NCBI GenBank assembly: GCA_002898315.1
Contig: BEHV01000010.1
Coordinates: 16,101-80,100 of the forward strand
Length of the DNA stretch: 64,000 nt
Reading direction: 5' to 3'
Source: a bacterium HR19
GTDB lineage: Bacteria > Calescibacteriota > Calescibacteriia > Calescibacteriales > Calescibacteriaceae
Positions within the stretch are counted from its first letter, which is position 1, and each line of letters opens with the position of its first letter. The notes under the pieces were generated by a model. The model did not search any database. It was given only the letters and a program-made list of their open reading frames with translations, and was not told where the DNA came from. This document shows, piece by piece, positions 42,605 to 54,189 of this stretch. A program made the translations under genes and the position numbers.

Positions 42605-43684
42605 ATGAAAATAGATGAAAAAAGCGCCTTGATAGTGGTAGATATTCAAAAGGATTTCACCCCCGGAGGCGCTCTTGCGGTCCCCGACGGAGATAAAATA
42701 ATTCCAGTAGTCAACAAATACATAGAAGAGTTCAGAAAGCGGGGAGCCAAAATCTTTGCCACAAGGGATTGGCATCCCGAAAATCATATATCTTTCAGAG
42801 AAAGAGGGGGACCGTGGCCACCGCACTGCGTACAGAACACCGAAGGTGCTCAGTTCCATCCCGACCTCAAACTCCCAGATGATGCAGAAATAATATCAAA
42901 GGCGTTTGACCCAGATAAAGAAGCTTACTCTGGTTTTCAAGGAACAGAGCTTGACGAAAAGTTGAAAAGCTACGGTGTAGAGAAAGTTTTCGTCTGCGGA
43001 CTTGCAACAGATTACTGTGTAAAAAACACCGTCCTTGATGCGATAAAAAACGGATACAAAACTTTTCTCCTATTAGATGCGGTTAAGGGAATAGCCCAAG
43101 ATACCACAGAAAAGGCAATAGAAGAGATGAAGAGTGCGGGAGCCGAAATAATTACCATAGACCAGATTAAGTCCGAAGAAGAAACACTTCCTGAAAAATT
43201 AGAGAAAAAGGTTCAGGAGATAAAAGAAGTTGCAGAAGCCAAATTAGAGGAGGTTATATCAGAGACGGGGGAGAGGATTTCGGAAGCGGGAGAAAAACTG
43301 AAGAAAGAAGTTGAGAAGACAAGAAAGAAAGCCGAAAAAGTCATAAAGAGAGAGCAGAAAAAACTCAAAAAGAAAGTAGAGAAGACCAAAAAAGAGGTTT
43401 CAAAGAAGGTCAAAAAAGCGGTAGAAAGTGTTGCAAGTATGATAGGGCGGGTTGCTTCAAAGTTAAAAGATACTAAAAAACAAAAAATTTCAGAGCCGAA
43501 GAAAAAACCCCTACAGAAAAAGAAAGTTCAAGCAAAAAGGACTGCTCACAAAGGTAAAATTTCACCCGGGGGCGGGAAATCCCCCCGGGAAAGAAAAAAA
43601 GGAGGTGGAAAAACCATGCCGGCAAAGAAGTCAGCGGCAAAAGCAAAAAAAGGCAAAAAAACAGCAAAGAAAAGCAAAAAATAA
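42605..43684 (+). CDS. pncA: Nicotinamidase fused to a lysine-rich, histone H1-like tail
   Basis: 359 residues in one uninterrupted frame. Residues 1-190 are a full nicotinamidase: catalytic triad D13, K99, C138 (VVDIQKDFTPGG, IISKAFDPDK, CGLATDYCVKN) and metal ligands D55, H57, H74. It turns nicotinamide into nicotinate for NAD salvage. Residues 191-359 form a coiled-coil-like, then very basic tail (KKEVEKTRKKAEKVIKREQK, KKVKKAVESVASMIG, MPAKKSAAKAKKGKK), unlike ordinary PncA, which ends near 180-215. The tail resembles histone H1/HC1-type DNA-binding proteins. An in-frame ATG at 43616 (codon 338) has its own Shine-Dalgarno, so a 22-residue basic peptide could also be made. Confidence 0.85.
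   Translation: MKIDEKSALIVVDIQKDFTPGGALAVPDGDKIIPVVNKYIEEFRKRGAKIFATRDWHPENHISFRERGGPWPPHCVQNTEGAQFHPDLKLPDDAEIISKAFDPDKEAYSGFQGTELDEKLKSYGVEKVFVCGLATDYCVKNTVLDAIKNGYKTFLLLDAVKGIAQDTTEKAIEEMKSAGAEIITIDQIKSEEETLPEKLEKKVQEIKEVAEAKLEEVISETGERISEAGEKLKKEVEKTRKKAEKVIKREQKKLKKKVEKTKKEVSKKVKKAVESVASMIGRVASKLKDTKKQKISEPKKKPLQKKKVQAKRTAHKGKISPGGGKSPRERKKGGGKTMPAKKSAAKAKKGKKTAKKSKK
43565..43589 (+). other. GC-rich hairpin inside the pncA tail, before an internal start
   Basis: CCCGGGGG at 43565-43572 pairs exactly with CCCCCGGG at 43582-43589, giving an 8-bp all-GC stem with a 9-nt loop. This is striking in an AT-rich genome. There is no following T-run, so it is not a classical terminator. It lies 11 nt before GGAGGTG (43601-43607), which in turn is 8 nt before the in-frame ATG 43616. 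A role in pausing or in controlling internal initiation is inference. Confidence 0.55.
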
Positions 43685-46041: not shown

Positions 46042-47526
46042 TTATTCAGGGATGATTATTTCCAGAAATTTTCTTTTTTTATCATTTTCCATCAGCCATT
46101 TTATTTCGCTCTTCCAGTTTGTTGTTTCAACGACCTCAAAACCATAAGCTTGGGCGACCTTATGGGGTGAAGTGATAGGGCTGAGGTAGTCCGCTTGATA
46201 ATTGGCTTTTGACCTTAGTGATTCATAACCTTTGTTGTTTAAAACCAGTATTTTAAGTTCTATGTCGTAGTTGCTGGCTGTCCATAGAGCTTGAGGTGAG
46301 TAGTGAAAGCTTCCATCTCCTATTATTGTCAGAGATTTTCCTCCCGCGATCGCATAACCTATTGAGGCAGGTAAAGCCCATCCCAAAAAGCCAGACCTAT
46401 TTGAGAAAAACAGTTTTTTTCTGTTGCCCAATATTTCCATAATGGTTTCTCTGTAAGCTGGTGTTTCTTCAAATACTGCTTCATCTTTTAAAAGTTTTTT
46501 CAGGTACTCTGTTATCTGAGAGACATTCTTATTTACTTCGTTTTTGGTGAAAGGTATCTTTTTATTGTTCTTTTTCTCTTTAACTCTTAGGAGTATTTCT
46601 TTGAGGAAATATTTGGGGTCGCACAGGAATGACTTCCAGAATCTTTTCACGTTTTCTTCATGGTCTGTGGTGATCTGTATTATATTTTCCCACATGTAAT
46701 CTTCATCCATGAAAATAACATTATGCAGGGTGCTTCCTATGAGCAAGACAAGGTCATATCTCATTAGTATCTTATTTATTTGACTGGCTTTTCTGGGTAA
46801 GATTGCGTCTATCTTCACAGAAGGAGACCTTGAGAAATACGGTTCGGCAAATATAGGAGAGCCAATTTTTTCAGAAAATTCTATCAATTCATCATGAGCA
46901 TCAAAGAGGTCAATTTCATATCCTGCTACTATTGCGATGCTTTTAGAATTATTTATTTCTTCGGCTATCTGATCAAGGATATCTGGCTTTAGAACCAGTT
47001 TTTCTTCTGTGTAGATTGATTCGGTTATATTGGTTTTTTCACATTCCTCTTCTGCAATATCAAATGGTAAGCTTACTATAACAGGTCCCGACGGATTAGA
47101 AAGGGCGGTTCTTATACCTACTGAAATAGCTTTTATTGCTTCTTTTTTATTCTTAACATCAATTACTTCTTTGACATAGGGTATTTTTCTCAGGTCAACG
47201 GTTAAAACTGGTTCATCTAACAGTTTTGTAGATTCCTGCTGTCCCACTATTACGAGTAGAGGGGTTCTGTCAAGTTTAGCTGAGTAAATATATCCGATGG
47301 AGTTCATCAATCCGGGGGCTGCGTGAAGGTTTACGATTCCTATTTTATTGTTATACAGGTAGCTTCCTGCGGACATTCCCACGGCAATACCATCGTGAAG
47401 GGCGAGGTAGTATTTTATTGAATTTGGTTTATATTTGAGGAATGGTAGTTCTGTTGTTCCGGGGTTGCCGAACATTAAGTTTGTGTATTTGGAGATGTAA
47501 TCAAAAATTTGCTCGGAGATATTCAT
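46042..47526 (-). CDS. Thiamine-diphosphate-dependent decarboxylase, benzoylformate decarboxylase-like
   Basis: 494 residues with three ThDP-enzyme domains. The N-terminal Pyr domain begins with MFGNPGTTELPFLKY, like benzoylformate decarboxylase. The C-terminal PP domain has the ThDP motif GDG...NN (IIGDGSFHYSPQALW, KILVLNNKGY). The cofactor-activating Glu usually found in the ALQE-type stretch is replaced: ALHDGIAVGMSAG places Asp at 45. Most 2-oxo acid decarboxylases need Glu here, so activity may be altered; the real substrate is not known. Divergent from the radical SAM genes, 98 bp apart. Confidence 0.82.
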   Translation of the reverse strand: MNISEQIFDYISKYTNLMFGNPGTTELPFLKYKPNSIKYYLALHDGIAVGMSAGSYLYNNKIGIVNLHAAPGLMNSIGYIYSAKLDRTPLLVIVGQQESTKLLDEPVLTVDLRKIPYVKEVIDVKNKKEAIKAISVGIRTALSNPSGPVIVSLPFDIAEEECEKTNITESIYTEEKLVLKPDILDQIAEEINNSKSIAIVAGYEIDLFDAHDELIEFSEKIGSPIFAEPYFSRSPSVKIDAILPRKASQINKILMRYDLVLLIGSTLHNVIFMDEDYMWENIIQITTDHEENVKRFWKSFLCDPKYFLKEILLRVKEKKNNKKIPFTKNEVNKNVSQITEYLKKLLKDEAVFEETPAYRETIMEILGNRKKLFFSNRSGFLGWALPASIGYAIAGGKSLTIIGDGSFHYSPQALWTASNYDIELKILVLNNKGYESLRSKANYQADYLSPITSPHKVAQAYGFEVVETTNWKSEIKWLMENDKKRKFLEIIIPE

Positions 47527-47624: not shown

Positions 47625-48785
47625 ATGTTGAATATTTTTTGTTTGTATTATATTAAATTGATGGCAAATTTTTTTCATATTGCTTTGTTCATAATTAGAA
47701 AATTATTTTTGATTGATTTTGAGAGAGCGTTGTTTATAGCATCTCAGATTTTTCCACCTTCTCAACCTGAGCTTTCTTTAAGGAGGATGAAAAATTTCTT
47801 TTTGACATATTTTGTGTGGAAATTTGGAGTAAAACTGCCTGTTAAACCCATAGTGCTTCAGATTGAATCTGTAAGAGGTTGTAATTTCAACTGTGTTATG
47901 TGTAGGGCAGGGCAGTTTGAAACGAGAACTATGAAGTTTGAGGAATTCAAAAAAATTATTAGTGAGTTTCCTGAAGCTTGTGTTGTCATAATGAACTTTG
48001 CGGGAGAACCATTTTTATCAAAAGATCTGTTGAGAATGGTGCGGTATGCTTCTGATGAAAGAAAAATGCTCGTGACCACTTTTTCTAACTTTTCTATTCT
48101 TCCAGATCCGGGAAAAGTTATTGAGAGTGGATTATATGAGATAATAGCTTCAATAGATACATTTGATAGGGAAAAGTTCAGTAGGATAAGAGAGAAAGGT
48201 AATTTAGATGTTGTTGTGGAGAATCTAAAAAGGTTAGTGTTGGAAAGAAAGGTTCGGGGAAAAAAAATTCCCGTGATAAGTATATCTGCTGTGTTTTCAC
48301 GGGGGACGAGAGAAGATGCGGAAGGCATAATTGAAAACGCTATAAAAATAGGGGTAGATAGGGTAAAATTTCAGAGGTTATTTTTCAGTGCTCCTCCTCA
48401 CTTACATATCCCTACGAAAGATGATTTCGTGCACCTTTTTTATCTCAAACAGAAATATAGAAACAAGATCGATGTCAGGATTTATAATTTTGAGTGGGGG
48501 GGAGATTCAATGCCTGGCTTTTGTTATCTTGCTTCATCTATGCTGACAATTGATTTATTCGGTAATGTTTTTCCTTGCTGTACTCCTTATGCTATATTTG
48601 AACCTCATAAGTCCTCTCTTGGTATTATACACCCATCAGAGCAAAGACTTTCGGAAGAGGTTTCAGATATATTAAGAAGGAGAGCTGAATTTATATCTAA
48701 AATGAGAAATGCACCTCCTGAATTTTGCCGTTTGTGCCCTTTATTTAAAAGAGAAAAGTGGGCAAATCAGAAGATTAAAAATTAA
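47625..48785 (+). CDS. Radical SAM/SPASM domain protein 1
   Basis: 386 residues from ATG 47625; a TTG at 47610 is less likely. After a hydrophobic and basic N-terminal stretch of about 70 residues, ESVRGCNFNCVMCRAG carries the CxxxCxxC [4Fe-4S]-SAM site (C86, C90, C93). Near the C-terminus, LTIDLFGNVFPCC and EFCRLCPLF hold cysteines for an auxiliary SPASM-type cluster. SPASM enzymes modify peptides or alter sugars and lipids by radical chemistry. A paralogue follows 16 bp later. No short precursor peptide was found beside it. Confidence 0.88.
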   Translation: MLNIFCLYYIKLMANFFHIALFIIRKLFLIDFERALFIASQIFPPSQPELSLRRMKNFFLTYFVWKFGVKLPVKPIVLQIESVRGCNFNCVMCRAGQFETRTMKFEEFKKIISEFPEACVVIMNFAGEPFLSKDLLRMVRYASDERKMLVTTFSNFSILPDPGKVIESGLYEIIASIDTFDREKFSRIREKGNLDVVVENLKRLVLERKVRGKKIPVISISAVFSRGTREDAEGIIENAIKIGVDRVKFQRLFFSAPPHLHIPTKDDFVHLFYLKQKYRNKIDVRIYNFEWGGDSMPGFCYLASSMLTIDLFGNVFPCCTPYAIFEPHKSSLGIIHPSEQRLSEEVSDILRRRAEFISKMRNAPPEFCRLCPLFKREKWANQKIKN

Positions 48786-48801
48786 TTTTCTTATTTCTCC
48801 T

Positions 48802-49863
48802 ATGATGAAAAAGATTGAAGATATTTTTAAAGATTTCAGAACTTCGTTAATAAGAGGTGAAGTAAAAGAAATCTTGCGAAAGATTAATAAGCGTAGATTA
48901 AAAAATATTGTTGTAAGTTATCTTGCGAGAAAAAGTGGTTTTATGCTTTCAGATTATCCTAGACCAGTGACAATATTTATTGAAACCGTCAAGGGATGTA
49001 ATTTTAACTGCGTGATGTGTAGAGCGGGTGAATTGACAAAATCTTATATGAGCTTTGAAACTTTCAAAAAATTAGCTGACTTATTTCATGATAGTTTATA
49101 TGTTTTCCCGTATGTTGTTGGGGAACCTATGCTGAATAAAGATATATACAAAATGATAAAATATTCATCGCAAGTTAAAAAGCAAGTTGTATTGGTTATT
49201 TCTAACTTTTCTGTCATCTCTCCGGAAGAATTGGTAAAATCTGAACCAGTTGAGGTCTCTGCTTCAATAGATTCTGTCAATCCTGAGAAATTTTCAAAAA
49301 TAAGAGTGAATGGAAATCTGAATCAAGTTCTCGGAAATGTGGAGAAGCTGATAGAAGTAAAGAAAAATTTAAGGAGTTATCTACCTGTTGTTTCTTTCAA
49401 TACGACTCTTATGAGAGAAAACTCTGACGAGGTTGAAGATATTGTTAAGGTTGGCATTAGTATGGGAGTTAATAAGTTTTATTTTCAAACTGTCTTCAAA
49501 GCCGACTTTCTGAATATTTATGGAGAGATTCCAGAGCTTTATTCTATTGAGCGTGTTAGAGAACTGAAAAATAAATATAAGGGTAAAGCGAAGATTTTTC
49601 TTATATCTTACTACGAATACGAGAGGGGGGATTATTTTTCTGGATACTGTCAGTGGGCTTTTTCTTCTTTATGTATAGATGTTGATGGTTATGCTTTCCC
49701 TTGCTACATACTTTTTTCGCAAAGACAAAAGAATTTCGGAAATATATTTACTGATTATGATAAAGTTATGAGAAGAAGAGCAGAGTTTATAAAGAATTTC
49801 AGAAAGAAAAGACCAGATATATGCGAAGGATGTCCTCTTTATTTCAGAAATGCTTCCCACTGA
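48802..49863 (+). CDS. Radical SAM/SPASM domain protein 2
   Basis: 353 residues from ATG 48802; an ORF open to 48709 overlaps the previous gene. TVKGCNFNCVMCRAGE carries the SAM cluster (C66, C70, C73). The C-terminal CIDVDGYAFPCYILF and DICEGCPLYF give SPASM cysteines. It is clearly related to the upstream gene: the same CNFNCVMCRAG block, a similar MNFAGEPFLSKD/VVGEPMLNKD strand, and the same RRRAEFI segment near the end. It is probably a duplication with later divergence. The toroid gene starts inside its last codons (49850). Confidence 0.88.
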   Translation: MMKKIEDIFKDFRTSLIRGEVKEILRKINKRRLKNIVVSYLARKSGFMLSDYPRPVTIFIETVKGCNFNCVMCRAGELTKSYMSFETFKKLADLFHDSLYVFPYVVGEPMLNKDIYKMIKYSSQVKKQVVLVISNFSVISPEELVKSEPVEVSASIDSVNPEKFSKIRVNGNLNQVLGNVEKLIEVKKNLRSYLPVVSFNTTLMRENSDEVEDIVKVGISMGVNKFYFQTVFKADFLNIYGEIPELYSIERVRELKNKYKGKAKIFLISYYEYERGDYFSGYCQWAFSSLCIDVDGYAFPCYILFSQRQKNFGNIFTDYDKVMRRRAEFIKNFRKKRPDICEGCPLYFRNASH

Positions 49864-51025
49864 TTTTAAAAATAGATATTTAAAATTTATAATCAGAGCC
49901 AGAAGTAATGTTTATATCTTTATCTTTTCTCTTCTGCTCATTTTATTTTTTTTTGCTTTTTCAGGTGCTTTACATGAAAACCCATATCTGATATATAAGT
50001 ATAAAAATGAGTATTGTAGGTTTTTGCATCCAGATGTGGTATCAAAAGGAAAAATTTTCCTCAAAAGCAGTACTTGGACAACAAATTATATTCTCAAAAA
50101 CAAAATGTATGAAGAAGTGAATTCATTTTCTTATCTTATAATAACCGATATACTCGCAGAGTTAGCGGAGGATATTGAAGACATTTTTCTTATTCAGAAG
50201 AATATATCTTTTCTTTTTTTATTTTCAGATGAGAGGGGAAATATGAGATACTTGCAAAACCTTCCACCAGATATGGATGACCTATCTTTATTTATCGTTC
50301 TCCTTACAGATATAAATTTTTCTTATTTTCACCTTTGCGATTTTGTAGAGAAAATAAAGATGTTTTATGACGGAAAACTGATAAAAACATGGGTAGGAGA
50401 AGTTTTTCCGTGGGGTAAGGAGAATCCAGCAGATATTCATGTAAATATTAACATATTGAGAGCATATTTTAAGTTTTCAAAGCTCTGTGGAGATGAATGT
50501 TCTTGTTCAGATGATGATGTTCAAGAAATAATTAAAAATGTCTTTTACGAAATATACATAAGGTTTAAAGATTATTCTATCTTTGCTCCGCAGTTTTATT
50601 ACTCTAATCAATACTTTATCATGTTTTTTCTGCTCAAGCTATTTGAAGAGGTTTTACCACAAGCTGGAAAATTTGGATTTGATATTTCCGAAATGCACTG
50701 TCCAACTTACTTATTTTCTCTCTTTGAAAGAGTTCTATCTGACAATAGATCGGAAAATTTAAGTCCTTTATTTCTTTCATCTTTTTTATTTTTCTTATCT
50801 TACTGTGGTTTTACTCATCGGGATTTGCAAAAGGCAGTTCGTTTTATTTCAGAAATTCAAAATAAAGACGGAAGTTTTCCAGCAGAAAACCTTTACTTTG
50901 ATTATCCTTATCACAAGGAAAGGAAAATATATTTTTCAAAATTTATTTCAACCTCTCTGGTTATATATTCTCTGAAAAGAGTTCTTGATAATTATGGATG
51001 CTGGAAAACAGAGGAGTTTTTCTGA
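49850..51025 (+). CDS. Membrane-anchored alpha/alpha-toroid protein (prenyltransferase/squalene cyclase repeat-like)
   Basis: 391 residues overlapping the preceding radical SAM gene by 14 bp, so translational coupling is likely. One membrane span (about 20-40) is followed by helical repeats. Motifs recall squalene-cyclase-like alpha/alpha toroids: LPPDMDDLSLFI (138-149), NPADIHVNINILRAYF (192-207) and IQNKDGSFPAEN with a QxxDGSF core. The aspartate pair in PDMDD is suggestive, but no full catalytic DxDD motif is seen, so enzymatic activity is unproven. I do not know a characterised family with this architecture. It probably works with the two radical SAM proteins at the membrane. Confidence 0.7.
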   Translation: MLPTDFKNRYLKFIIRARSNVYIFIFSLLLILFFFAFSGALHENPYLIYKYKNEYCRFLHPDVVSKGKIFLKSSTWTTNYILKNKMYEEVNSFSYLIITDILAELAEDIEDIFLIQKNISFLFLFSDERGNMRYLQNLPPDMDDLSLFIVLLTDINFSYFHLCDFVEKIKMFYDGKLIKTWVGEVFPWGKENPADIHVNINILRAYFKFSKLCGDECSCSDDDVQEIIKNVFYEIYIRFKDYSIFAPQFYYSNQYFIMFFLLKLFEEVLPQAGKFGFDISEMHCPTYLFSLFERVLSDNRSENLSPLFLSSFLFFLSYCGFTHRDLQKAVRFISEIQNKDGSFPAENLYFDYPYHKERKIYFSKFISTSLVIYSLKRVLDNYGCWKTEEFF

Positions 51026-51068: not shown

Positions 51069-52550
51069 TTATCGGCTTATTTTGATTATTTTAAATTCTC
51101 CTATTATTTTGACATCAGAGAATTTATCTTTGAAGTATTTCCCGCACTCTTCTGTCCAGCATAAAACATAGTTTACTCCATTTTGTTTTATAAACTCCAT
51201 TATGTTTGATTTTTCAAGTGGTTTCCCCATAAATTTTCCTGCCTTGAAAGGAGAGTTGAAAACCTCTCCCCATGGTAATCCATTACCTATGAATTTTTTC
51301 TCTTCTACTTTTGAAATTATGTATGGAATTATATGTGAATCATAAAGAGGATTAATAAGCTTCCCATTTTTAAAAATATGTGTATCTCCTTCAACAAGAA
51401 TTACAGAATGAGGTTGAACACTTTTGAGGTAATCTATGGTCTCTATGACTCCTTGTGGCATATTATGAGGTAGAGGGCTATTACCAGTGATAGATAATCC
51501 CGCTCTTATCAAAAAGAAAAGAGCTATCACTTTTTCTAAAAGTTTATCATGTTTTGTTGTCTTTGAGTATATTAGTGTGTATGTGAGGAAAAGTGGAGTT
51601 AATCTGAATGGGTTTGGACTGAAAAAGAGGAGTGATAGAAAAATAAATGGCTTTTGAATTTCTATTCCTTTTTCATATAAGTAGAGTAAAAAGAGGCTTG
51701 TGATGACGAGCAGATAATATATCGCTCCCGCATAAATAAAGATTTTTTTGTCTGTAAGTAGAGCTTTTGCACATAAAATCAGTAAAACAGGCACAAAAAT
51801 AAAAGAGAGCTCAAAGTATTCAAATTTCGCAAATCTTATTATCAGGTTTGGGTCTGCTGGGACGAATACTTTATTCTCAACTGATGTGTGAATTTTGTAT
51901 CTTAAAAACTCAATAACATGTGGGTAAATGCAGTGGAGAACTGTCAATATCTTTGGAAATGCAAGGGAAATTGTAAAGATGAAAAATCTTATATCTCTTT
52001 CTAAAACAGAATAAAGGAGAGAGAATAAAATTAAGGGAGGAGAAATCAGGTGCGCTAATCCTGAAAGTAAATATCTTGTTTTATCTTTTTTTAAGGTGCA
52101 TGCAGAAAAGATCACGCAAGATAGAAACCAGTGAACAGACCCTCTTGTAATACAAACTAAACCTAAAATCAGAAATAATGATGTGATGAAGTTTATATTC
52201 TGATAAGCTGTGGTATTCCTGATGCTCAAGATCAAAAAGATCGTACCGAAAAGGAAATAAGTTAAGCTTGAGATATTATAGATTAGTTCGTAGTTTTTCA
52301 GACCAAAAATTTTTGAGACGAAGAACGGCAAAAAATATATTTCGGATGAACCGAGAGATATAAGACATGATAGGTTTGTTCTATCGTATTTACCTTCTGC
52401 TAAACTTTTTGCTATCGCAAATCTTATCGGGTTGTCATCATAGTAGAACAGGGTATTGAGGTTTGATGGGTATAGGATAATAATGGTAAGTCCAACCATT
52501 ATGAGCGAAAGAGAGTTATCTTTCAATCTTTGTGATAATGTATCCGTCAT
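51069..52550 (-). CDS. Polytopic membrane protein, GT-C-like
   Basis: 493 residues with about ten hydrophobic spans and a soluble C-terminal part (about 370-493) containing YLKSVQPHSVILVEGDTHIF and IKQNGVNYVLCWTEECGKYF. A large membrane domain with a C-terminal tail naming the end product resembles GT-C glycosyltransferases, which use polyprenyl-phosphate sugars in the periplasm. A clear acidic catalytic motif in the first loop (YYDDNPIR at about 37-44) supports this. It overlaps the next gene upstream by 35 bp in another frame. No substrate can be proposed. Confidence 0.65.
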   Translation of the reverse strand: MTDTLSQRLKDNSLSLIMVGLTIIILYPSNLNTLFYYDDNPIRFAIAKSLAEGKYDRTNLSCLISLGSSEIYFLPFFVSKIFGLKNYELIYNISSLTYFLFGTIFLILSIRNTTAYQNINFITSLFLILGLVCITRGSVHWFLSCVIFSACTLKKDKTRYLLSGLAHLISPPLILFSLLYSVLERDIRFFIFTISLAFPKILTVLHCIYPHVIEFLRYKIHTSVENKVFVPADPNLIIRFAKFEYFELSFIFVPVLLILCAKALLTDKKIFIYAGAIYYLLVITSLFLLYLYEKGIEIQKPFIFLSLLFFSPNPFRLTPLFLTYTLIYSKTTKHDKLLEKVIALFFLIRAGLSITGNSPLPHNMPQGVIETIDYLKSVQPHSVILVEGDTHIFKNGKLINPLYDSHIIPYIISKVEEKKFIGNGLPWGEVFNSPFKAGKFMGKPLEKSNIMEFIKQNGVNYVLCWTEECGKYFKDKFSDVKIIGEFKIIKISR

Positions 52551-54189
52551 TTTTCATCAAAATTCGTAATTTTGCTTTTAATTTTCTTTTTTCAACCAGA
52601 TTTGATAAAAATTTTTCAAAGCTTGAATCAAAAACTATGTACTCCCATTTCCCTTCGTTTATTATAAACTCTATTGTTCTTTCTCTCATATCTGGTTCAA
52701 TTTTTTCAAATATCGGTAAGAAAACAGCTGGGTTTATTTTGTTATTTGAATAGATTTTGAAAGCGGGAGGAAATGCGTAAATCAAGATTTTCTCTTGGTT
52801 TATATTCCTATCTTCAAAGAATTTTATCACTTCGTAGTTATCTTTTAAACTTAATCTTCCGGGGAAAAGTTCTTTTATGTTCCACATATCAACAACTCTC
52901 AAAAGGCATGCTATTGTGAAAGCTGAAAAAAATAAATATTTTCTTCCTTCAAGAAATCTTATCATTATTTTAGCTGTCATCAAGCACCACAGAGGTATAA
53001 GGATGTATAGCATTTTTGGTATGAGAAGGAAGTAATTTTTAAGGATAACGAAAAGGAAAGCAGATAATATAAAAGCTGATAATTCAAATGATAACCCTAC
53101 ATACCCTAAACCGAGTAAAGAGAAAATTATGTGTAGTATTATTGCGAAGTCGGATATTTTTTTCAGAGGTGGAACATCTGTGATGTGCCCGTATCTCAAA
53201 AGCACGTCAGATAGAGAGAATGCTTCTTTGATATTAGAGAAAATTTCTTTTAGAAAAAATGTTATCTTTAAAGGGAAAGAGATAATTGATATGAGAATAT
53301 GAAAAGATATGTTTAGAAATTTTTGGAGCTCAAGCGGGTAAGCATTTGAAAGGTGAAATTTCAGGGCATTCGGAGGAAACATTACTACACAATCAACGCA
53401 CCTATAAACTATTTTAACGTCTTCTTTTTGGGAGGAAATTATGTAGTATAAGTGTGGTAAAGTAAATACAGAGGAAATTGCAAGTGCTATTGCTATTTTT
53501 TTTATATTTCTGTGATATATCAGCGATGTTAAAAATATTCCTAGTACTGCGAATACTAATGGAAGGTAGGAAAAAAGAGTTAATCCAGCACTTATTCCAC
53601 CCAATATGTACTTTCTTCTCTTGATGAGATATGTCGTTATTATCAGGAAAGTTCCAGCTTGCAAGTGGTGAAACTGTGCCATAAAGAAATGAAATGATGA
53701 AACTGAAAGCAAAGAGAATATCAAGATATATAGAGTTTTGTTTTTTAAGAAAAAGTAATCATCTGATAGTTTTACAAGAAATATGAAAATTATATAACCT
53801 AAAATCATAAGATATAGGAAAGTTAATACTTTTACTTTGAATCCGTACTGCAAGAGAGGAAGCTTTTCACCTAAAAAATTCAAAAGATATGTAAATATTG
53901 CTCCGTGATACTCTTTCCATAAAATAGGTATTTCAAGACCAAATATTTTTAACTTCAGGTAAGGGAAGAAATCTTGTTTTATTATAGACACAGAAAGAAA
54001 CAACTTTTTTTCGCGACGGTTTGGTGAGAGGAATTCTTTCTTTTCAAAATCTATGCCAGATATTTTCTCCCCTATATCGCTTACCATCATCATACCCTCG
54101 GAATGAAAAGGTGTAGAAAGAAAAATGACATCTGTGAGAGTTAAAATAAAGTAAAATAGCAGGAAAAATAGAAGAACCCTCTTTTTCAT
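52516..54189 (-). CDS. Polytopic membrane protein, GT-C-like
   Basis: 557 residues with an N-terminal signal anchor and about ten further spans. It carries GAIFTYLLNFLGEKLP, FHFFMAQFHHLQAGTFLIITTYL and a C-terminal soluble region (KFFEDRNINQEKILIYAFPP, GKWEYIVFDSSFEKFLSN). The overall build matches the GT-C glycosyltransferase superfamily, and the C-terminal tail resembles that of the downstream neighbour (YIVFDSSF versus YVLCWTEE). The two genes overlap by 35 bp. atpD lies only 11 bp upstream on the same strand, an odd pairing. Confidence 0.65.
   Translation of the reverse strand: MKKRVLLFFLLFYFILTLTDVIFLSTPFHSEGMMMVSDIGEKISGIDFEKKEFLSPNRREKKLFLSVSIIKQDFFPYLKLKIFGLEIPILWKEYHGAIFTYLLNFLGEKLPLLQYGFKVKVLTFLYLMILGYIIFIFLVKLSDDYFFLKNKTLYILIFSLLSVSSFHFFMAQFHHLQAGTFLIITTYLIKRRKYILGGISAGLTLFSYLPLVFAVLGIFLTSLIYHRNIKKIAIALAISSVFTLPHLYYIISSQKEDVKIVYRCVDCVVMFPPNALKFHLSNAYPLELQKFLNISFHILISIISFPLKITFFLKEIFSNIKEAFSLSDVLLRYGHITDVPPLKKISDFAIILHIIFSLLGLGYVGLSFELSAFILSAFLFVILKNYFLLIPKMLYILIPLWCLMTAKIMIRFLEGRKYLFFSAFTIACLLRVVDMWNIKELFPGRLSLKDNYEVIKFFEDRNINQEKILIYAFPPAFKIYSNNKINPAVFLPIFEKIEPDMRERTIEFIINEGKWEYIVFDSSFEKFLSNLVEKRKLKAKLRILMKNDGYIITKIER

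Follow-up and report, generated by a model that had tools for sequence, protein, structure and literature searches.

What might two radical SAM (S-adenosylmethionine) enzymes and a membrane-anchored alpha/alpha toroid do if they act together? The question is raised by three consecutive genes, here called rSAM1, rSAM2 and P3, at positions 47625 to 51025 of a stretch of 64,000 nucleotides from bacterium HR19 (Calescibacteriaceae; contig BEHV01000010.1, positions 16,101 to 80,100 of the forward strand), the whole of which is referred to below as the window. An earlier account, made without database searches (the sequence-only reading), had proposed that the three genes are probably one unit and that a lipid or polyprenyl-linked molecule may be altered at the membrane. 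Judged by profile comparison and structure prediction, P3 is a divergent member of a widespread family of single-domain class II terpene-cyclase-type (TC-beta) proteins.

Organization of the gene trio

The genes of the trio and their principal motifs are as follows.

47625..48785, plus strand: rSAM1, radical SAM/Twitch protein of 386 amino acids, type-1 paralogue (PF04055, E 6.8e-10)
47880..47903, plus strand: CxxxCxxC motif (CNFNCVMC) of rSAM1, read from the sequence and invariant in a 14-member family alignment
48802..49863, plus strand: rSAM2, radical SAM/Twitch protein of 353 amino acids, type-2 paralogue (PF04055, E 3.9e-13; PF13186 SPASM, E 1.9e-7)
48997..49020, plus strand: CxxxCxxC motif (CNFNCVMC) of rSAM2, with C66, C70 and C73 invariant in the same alignment
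49850..51025, plus strand: P3, membrane-anchored single-domain class II terpene-cyclase-like (TC-beta) toroid, 391 amino acids
49916..49972, plus strand: predicted transmembrane segment of P3, residues 23-41 (hydropathy; net charge +4 before it and 0 after it)
50270..50281, plus strand: DxDD motif of P3, D141-M142-D143-D144, with Asp columns invariant in 34 sequences
50597..50602, plus strand: Tyr250-Tyr251 of P3, counterpart of drimenol synthase Y426-Y427 in the alignment

The layout given in the sequence-only reading was confirmed: rSAM1 and rSAM2 are separated by 16 bp and are paralogous (36% identity over 335 amino acids, E 6e-66), and rSAM2 and P3 overlap by 14 nt, counted from the ATG of P3. 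The same order was found again in a second species of the window's genus (genome G002, locus L035), where the overlap of rSAM2 and P3 is also kept, there at 8 nt. Between the two species, identity is 76% for P3, 92% for rSAM2 and 90% for rSAM1, with ratios of nonsynonymous to synonymous substitution rates (dN/dS) of 0.30, 0.14 and 0.17, respectively. The trio is thus coding and under purifying selection, beyond chance, and likely represents a single transcription unit conserved in the two species to which the rSAM1-rSAM2-P3 arrangement is confined.

P3 and the class II terpene cyclases

The relationship of P3 to known proteins is not apparent from its sequence alone, which matched no Pfam or NCBIfam family, including the squalene-hopene cyclase families PF13249 and PF13243. 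A two-sequence P3 profile found no match in the PDB and only weak, short matches in 386 genomes, and the AlphaFold2 model made from two sequences reached a mean predicted local distance difference test score (pLDDT) of 41. A search with the squalene-hopene cyclase family retrieved other toroids and not P3, and no relative was detected in viral contigs. However, a codon pattern for the P3 motifs, PDxDD...NxNxL, recovered two Fermentibacteria proteins with equal motif order (L113/L114), and when these two seeded a search across some 85,000 species, 33 loci from many phyla (L120-L152) were obtained that encode a family of single-domain toroids, whose motif order is PPDLDDTAC ... VDxVVNANVLxYLG ... 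YY ... QxxDGSW ... GSEELTTA. P3 carries the corresponding PPDxDD, TW, D..VN.N, YY, QxxDGS and C-terminal S..[ST]T[AS] elements. A hidden Markov model of the family built without P3 scored P3 at 20.2 bits, against a maximum of 2.9 for 1000 shuffled versions of it, and hhalign aligned residues 114-380 of P3 with the family (probability 97.1, E 5e-11). Without P3, the family matches drimenol synthase (9mhs, E 1.7e-24) and AstC (5e-13), as well as squalene-hopene cyclases.

Structure prediction from the 34-sequence alignment gave an alpha/alpha toroid (pLDDT 80.7; predicted template modelling score 0.80), in agreement with the fold suggested earlier. Its best match in the PDB is AsDMS, the HAD-TC-beta drimenol synthase (9m7d/9mhs; Foldseek E 9.5e-10; VIA Z 29.1, 2.6 Å over 294 residues), and lower VIA Z scores were obtained for monodomain squalene-hopene-type cyclases (25.8), MstE (24.4) and sugar epimerases (~22). 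The sequence-only reading had seen no clear DxDD in P3, yet the PPDMDD motif that it listed itself contains D141-M-D143-D144, which aligns with the DxDD/DxDTT of class II cyclases; P140 and the three Asp columns of this motif are invariant across the alignment. D141, D143 and Y251 of P3 align with D331, D333 and Y427 of AsDMS, the tyrosine by alignment only. Mutation of any of these three AsDMS residues abolishes activity, and Y427 hydrogen-bonds the catalytic Asp (PMC12365925).

P3, AsDMS and AstC each have a single TC-beta toroid with a class II acid motif, but at 15-17% identity they differ in several respects. P3 has no HAD domain within its 391 residues, carries a transmembrane anchor, and has DxDD rather than DxDTT. 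The diphosphate-binding Tyr373 and Arg378 of AsDMS have no counterparts in P3 (T180 occupies the former position, and there is no Arg at the positions of 378 or 380). Free prenyl diphosphates are therefore improbable substrates of P3, and a prenylated or polyprenyl-linked molecule is the more probable one. A precedent is MstE (PDB 6sb*), a monodomain class II meroterpenoid cyclase whose toroid acts on a prenylated aromatic acid instead of a free diphosphate, although it belongs to another subfamily (12% identity to P3) and, in the literature consulted, has no radical SAM partner. To our knowledge, MstE also lacks a transmembrane anchor. In P3 the anchor proposed in the earlier account is present as one N-terminal segment; transmembrane calls and topology were based on hydropathy and charge counts, and because the net charge is +4 before the segment and 0 after it, the toroid is predicted to lie outside the cytoplasm.

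A relative of P3 (L180:8508-9557, contig C65) was observed in genome G001, which belongs to the same genus. It is a lipoprotein-like TC-beta protein with DIDTT in place of DxDD, encoded away from radical SAM genes, and its hydrophobic lipoprotein-like leader falls below the transmembrane threshold used.

TC-beta toroids in other bacteria

Within 8 kb of the collected toroids, and counting fusions, a UbiA prenyltransferase was found at 10 of the 33 loci, a P450 at 11 and a PhyH dioxygenase at three, while the same queries gave no match at 27 control loci, which were loci already at hand and not a random sample. Several partners are fused to the toroid: toroid-repeat-UbiA in Mangrovicella (L139:7875-10889), GT4-toroid-P450 in Verrucomicrobiota (L136:1341-5366) and PhyH-toroid in Rhodanobacteraceae (L127:7104-9038). 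An acidobacterial locus (L148:3188-11627) encodes farnesyl diphosphate (FPP) synthase, UbiA, toroid and P450 domains, together with ABC transporters and a protein that matches sulfotransferases below threshold, a layout that would fit a terpenoid or meroterpenoid cluster with the toroid as its likely cyclase. At five more loci (L132, L128, L130, L133, L142), toroid genes occur with UbiA, with P450s, one of them joined to an acyltransferase domain, and with ABC exporter genes. Clusters of UbiA, P450 and toroid genes in several phyla constitute a terpenoid/meroterpenoid-like cluster that has apparently not been described.

Whereas the partners of the collected family are UbiA, P450, PhyH and ABC exporter genes, those of P3 are radical SAM and GT-C-like genes. 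Radical SAM-like genes of other kinds were seen near toroids at six of the 33 loci; one is RlmN and another a Twitch protein that scored 158 bits where its model requires 170. Nine further toroid loci had no radical SAM-like gene nearby, and in neither set was the window-type radical SAM family found beside a toroid outside the two species.

A different association was noted at L181:8570-9889, L182:6950-8311 and L188, where a sequence resembling the NHLP leader of ribosomally synthesized and posttranslationally modified peptides (RiPPs) is fused before a TC-beta toroid domain and the genes adjoin bacteriocin-type ABC exporter genes. The leader was scored in L182 only, at 44 bits against a cut-off of 50.9.

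The radical SAM pair

Both radical SAM proteins of the window belong to a family that is well separated from its nearest outsiders. In a search of 386 genomes, full-length members scored at least 203 bits and outsiders no more than about 104 bits, and the outside relatives shared no informative common neighbourhood. The window-type proteins form one clade (100/100); rSAM1-type proteins form a clade of their own within it (100/100), and the remaining members are rSAM2-type. The lineage was sampled through five genomes of one family (G000-G004, 82-86% complete), each of which has several window-type proteins, with at least one of either type. Since a single clade is represented by both types in all five genomes, the two-enzyme arrangement is old, with an expansion in G001.

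The SPASM score of rSAM2 (31.7 bits) exceeds the Pfam cut-off, while that of rSAM1 (21.1) lies just under the required 21.5. C283, C301, C341 and C344 (rSAM2 numbering) of the auxiliary-cluster domain are invariant in the 14 family members, a pattern that would fit a Twitch-like domain holding one cluster. rSAM1 also has a hydrophobic N-terminal segment (residues 6-24). Among the NCBIfam models listed, the best match of the pair was a tungsten-enzyme maturase model, at 78 bits where 380 are needed.

In G001, the family has at least nine copies (contigs C35, C36 and C52; L029-L032), in some of which roughly 50 residues are inserted behind the IRxxG segment.

GT-C-like neighbours

Two membrane protein genes converge on the trio.

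51069..52550, minus strand: GTCa, polytopic membrane protein of 493 amino acids, GT-C/GT87-like, convergent neighbour of the trio
52516..54189, minus strand: GTCb, polytopic membrane protein of 557 amino acids, probable GT-C-like partner of GTCa

Eight transmembrane segments are predicted for GTCa, which carries an acidic DDN motif in the first predicted loop and matches GT87 below threshold (E 0.0013; 19 bits against a cut-off of 25). GTCb has nine segments, and no Pfam family was found for it. GT-C glycosyltransferases use polyprenyl-phosphate sugars, and the features of GTCa would fit an enzyme of this kind. Homologues of GTCa occur in all five genomes, beside radical SAM genes in four of them (G000, G002, G001 and G004), and GTCb, likewise present in all five, is always next to GTCa or one gene away. 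Linkage to radical SAM genes is steadier for GTCa and GTCb (51069-54189) than for P3, and the conserved core of the lineage consists of the radical SAM family and the two GT-C-like membrane proteins, with the toroid P3 as an accessory.

A UbiA-like membrane protein is also encoded in all five genomes. Its gene lies in one stretch with radical SAM genes, GTCb and GTCa in G004, is grouped with GTCa and GTCb in G003, and is located on contig C4 in G000 (L049:8365-9186). A resemblance of this protein to the UbiA proteins of the toroid clusters was considered, but the match was weak (hhalign probability 31) and was not used as main evidence.

Proposed pathway and alternative explanations

A lipid or polyprenyl-linked substrate, as put forward in the sequence-only reading, remains the best interpretation of the locus, because its toroid is a relative of class II terpene cyclases and belongs to a family that elsewhere occurs with UbiA and FPP synthase. 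Tentatively, and at somewhat less than an even chance, the locus is regarded as a module for modification of a membrane isoprenoid or polyprenyl-linked glycolipid. In such a module, the two radical SAM/Twitch paralogues would work in the cytoplasm and subject a membrane-linked substrate to radical chemistry, and the two GT-C-like glycosyltransferases would draw on polyprenyl-phosphate sugars as donors at the outer face. P3, held by one helix with its toroid probably outside, would start ring closure by protonating an isoprenoid chain at its terminal double bond through Asp143, with the assistance of Asp141 and Tyr251; these roles are suggested by the conserved residues. Radical chemistry inside and glycosyl transfer and cyclization outside would thus converge on one molecule. 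The stronger proposal is doubtful: a new lipid pathway that couples terpene cyclization by a membrane-anchored TC-beta enzyme outside the cytoplasm to radical chemistry inside, the radical SAM pair and the cyclase working one after the other on a polyprenyl-linked glycolipid to which two GT-C enzymes add sugars.

Several observations weigh against a lipid-modification module. The identity of P3 to other members of the toroid family is as low as 13-20%, and a location outside the cytoplasm would be unusual for a class II cyclase. None of the NCBIfam models listed was reached at its cut-off by the radical SAM pair, and their chemistry is thus not fixed by family; GTCa and GTCb lack a confident family as well. 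The UbiA-like protein of the lineage has lost the first Asp motif and scores 26.8 bits against the UbiA cut-off of 34.2, and its gene, which adjoins radical SAM genes in G001 and G004, is unlinked in G000. Finally, P3 adjoins radical SAM genes in two species only. The earlier proposal of one unit is accordingly retained in part: a transcription unit of constant order is likely in these two species, but the linkage is not general, being absent from G001 and from the 33 and nine toroid loci collected elsewhere.

This last point bears on a rather unlikely but substantial alternative, in which P3 is a mere neighbour, a terpene-cyclase-like gene recently gained or moved, and the real partners of the radical SAM enzymes are GTCa and GTCb. 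At a contig end of G001, two radical SAM genes, GTCa and GTCb are arranged as in the window with no P3 between them; the P3-like gene of that genome is at an unrelated place, and none was detected in G003 or G004. P3 has also evolved faster than the radical SAM genes. Nevertheless, the overlap with rSAM2 was kept in two species while P3 diverged to 76% identity, and at 82-86% completeness a gene may be missing from an assembly.

Another explanation, judged unlikely, is that P3 is a repurposed toroid handling glycans, such as an epimerase, hydrolase or lectin-like protein acting on the GT-C products, and that the radical SAM pair acts on a sugar, with no terpene chemistry involved. Sugar epimerases and the GH76 and GH105 families match the fold too (Z ~19-22; GH76 E 9.5e-4), the GT-C-like neighbours are the most constant partners, and relatives of P3 are fused to GT4 glycosyltransferases in Verrucomicrobiota. 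Sequence profiles, however, favour terpene cyclases, with no comparable sugar-enzyme score among the matches; drimenol synthase stands about 7 Z units above the epimerases; and the DxDD and the catalytic Tyr are kept in P3.

Very improbable is a RiPP-like system, with a peptide or protein as the target of the radical SAM/SPASM pair, perhaps an undetected precursor or P3 itself. SPASM/Twitch enzymes commonly mature peptides, SkfB is the top PDB match for the radical SAM family (E 3e-15), and a toroid relative from another genome carries a fused NHLP leader sequence, but the reading is weak because, as noted in the earlier account, no precursor is evident, with no small open reading frame of at least 22 amino acids found for it in the window and no match across loci among 86 small frames around the radical SAM genes of the five genomes, and all peptide-maturase NCBIfam models stayed far under their cut-offs.

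The idea that radical SAM enzymes replace the oxygen-dependent P450 and PhyH enzymes in an anaerobe was rejected, as COX1-type oxidases are encoded in all five genomes.

Relation to hopanoid tailoring and wider significance

The statement in the sequence-only reading that no described system is like this one was too strong. In hopanoid tailoring, a class II cyclase, the radical SAM proteins HpnH and HpnJ and the glycosyltransferase HpnI serve one lipid pathway (PMC12583986). In the way it would work, the locus is most like this pathway, combining the same enzyme types, but the families differ. The hopanoid cyclase is a squalene-hopene cyclase, and none (PF13249) was detected in the five genomes of the P3 lineage, which are 82-86% complete; the HpnH model (TIGR03470) scored 27.1 bits against a cut-off of 225.05 with the window radical SAM proteins; and the glycosyltransferase type is different. 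In the open-licence literature, no paper was found that joins UbiA, radical SAM and terpene cyclase in one cluster.

The radical SAM pair, the TC-beta-like protein and the two GT-C-like proteins together suggest that a membrane lipid or glycolipid is remodelled by a pathway not yet described. Should P3 prove active, the range of class II terpene cyclization would widen to include an enzyme that is anchored in the membrane, probably exported and linked to radical SAM chemistry, in a little-known lineage in which no squalene-hopene cyclase was detected. Of more general reach are the lineage-specific radical SAM pair with its GT-C-like partners and the widespread TC-beta family, standalone and fused, whose partners include UbiA, P450, PhyH, GT4 and the NHLP leader; no description of this family was found, and it points to unmined terpenoid or meroterpenoid clusters. 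A standalone TC-beta ancestor has been proposed for drimenol synthase (PMC12365925), and the collected family resembles such an ancestor.

Other genes of the window

Directly upstream of the trio lies one further gene.

46042..47526, minus strand: benzoylformate-decarboxylase-like thiamine pyrophosphate enzyme

This enzyme was considered as a member of the unit and ruled out, as its gene is on the opposite strand and is not at this place in G002 (L035). Further upstream, positions 42605-43684 encode an isochorismatase/nicotinamidase-like protein whose long C-terminal tail is histone-like and rich in Lys and Glu.

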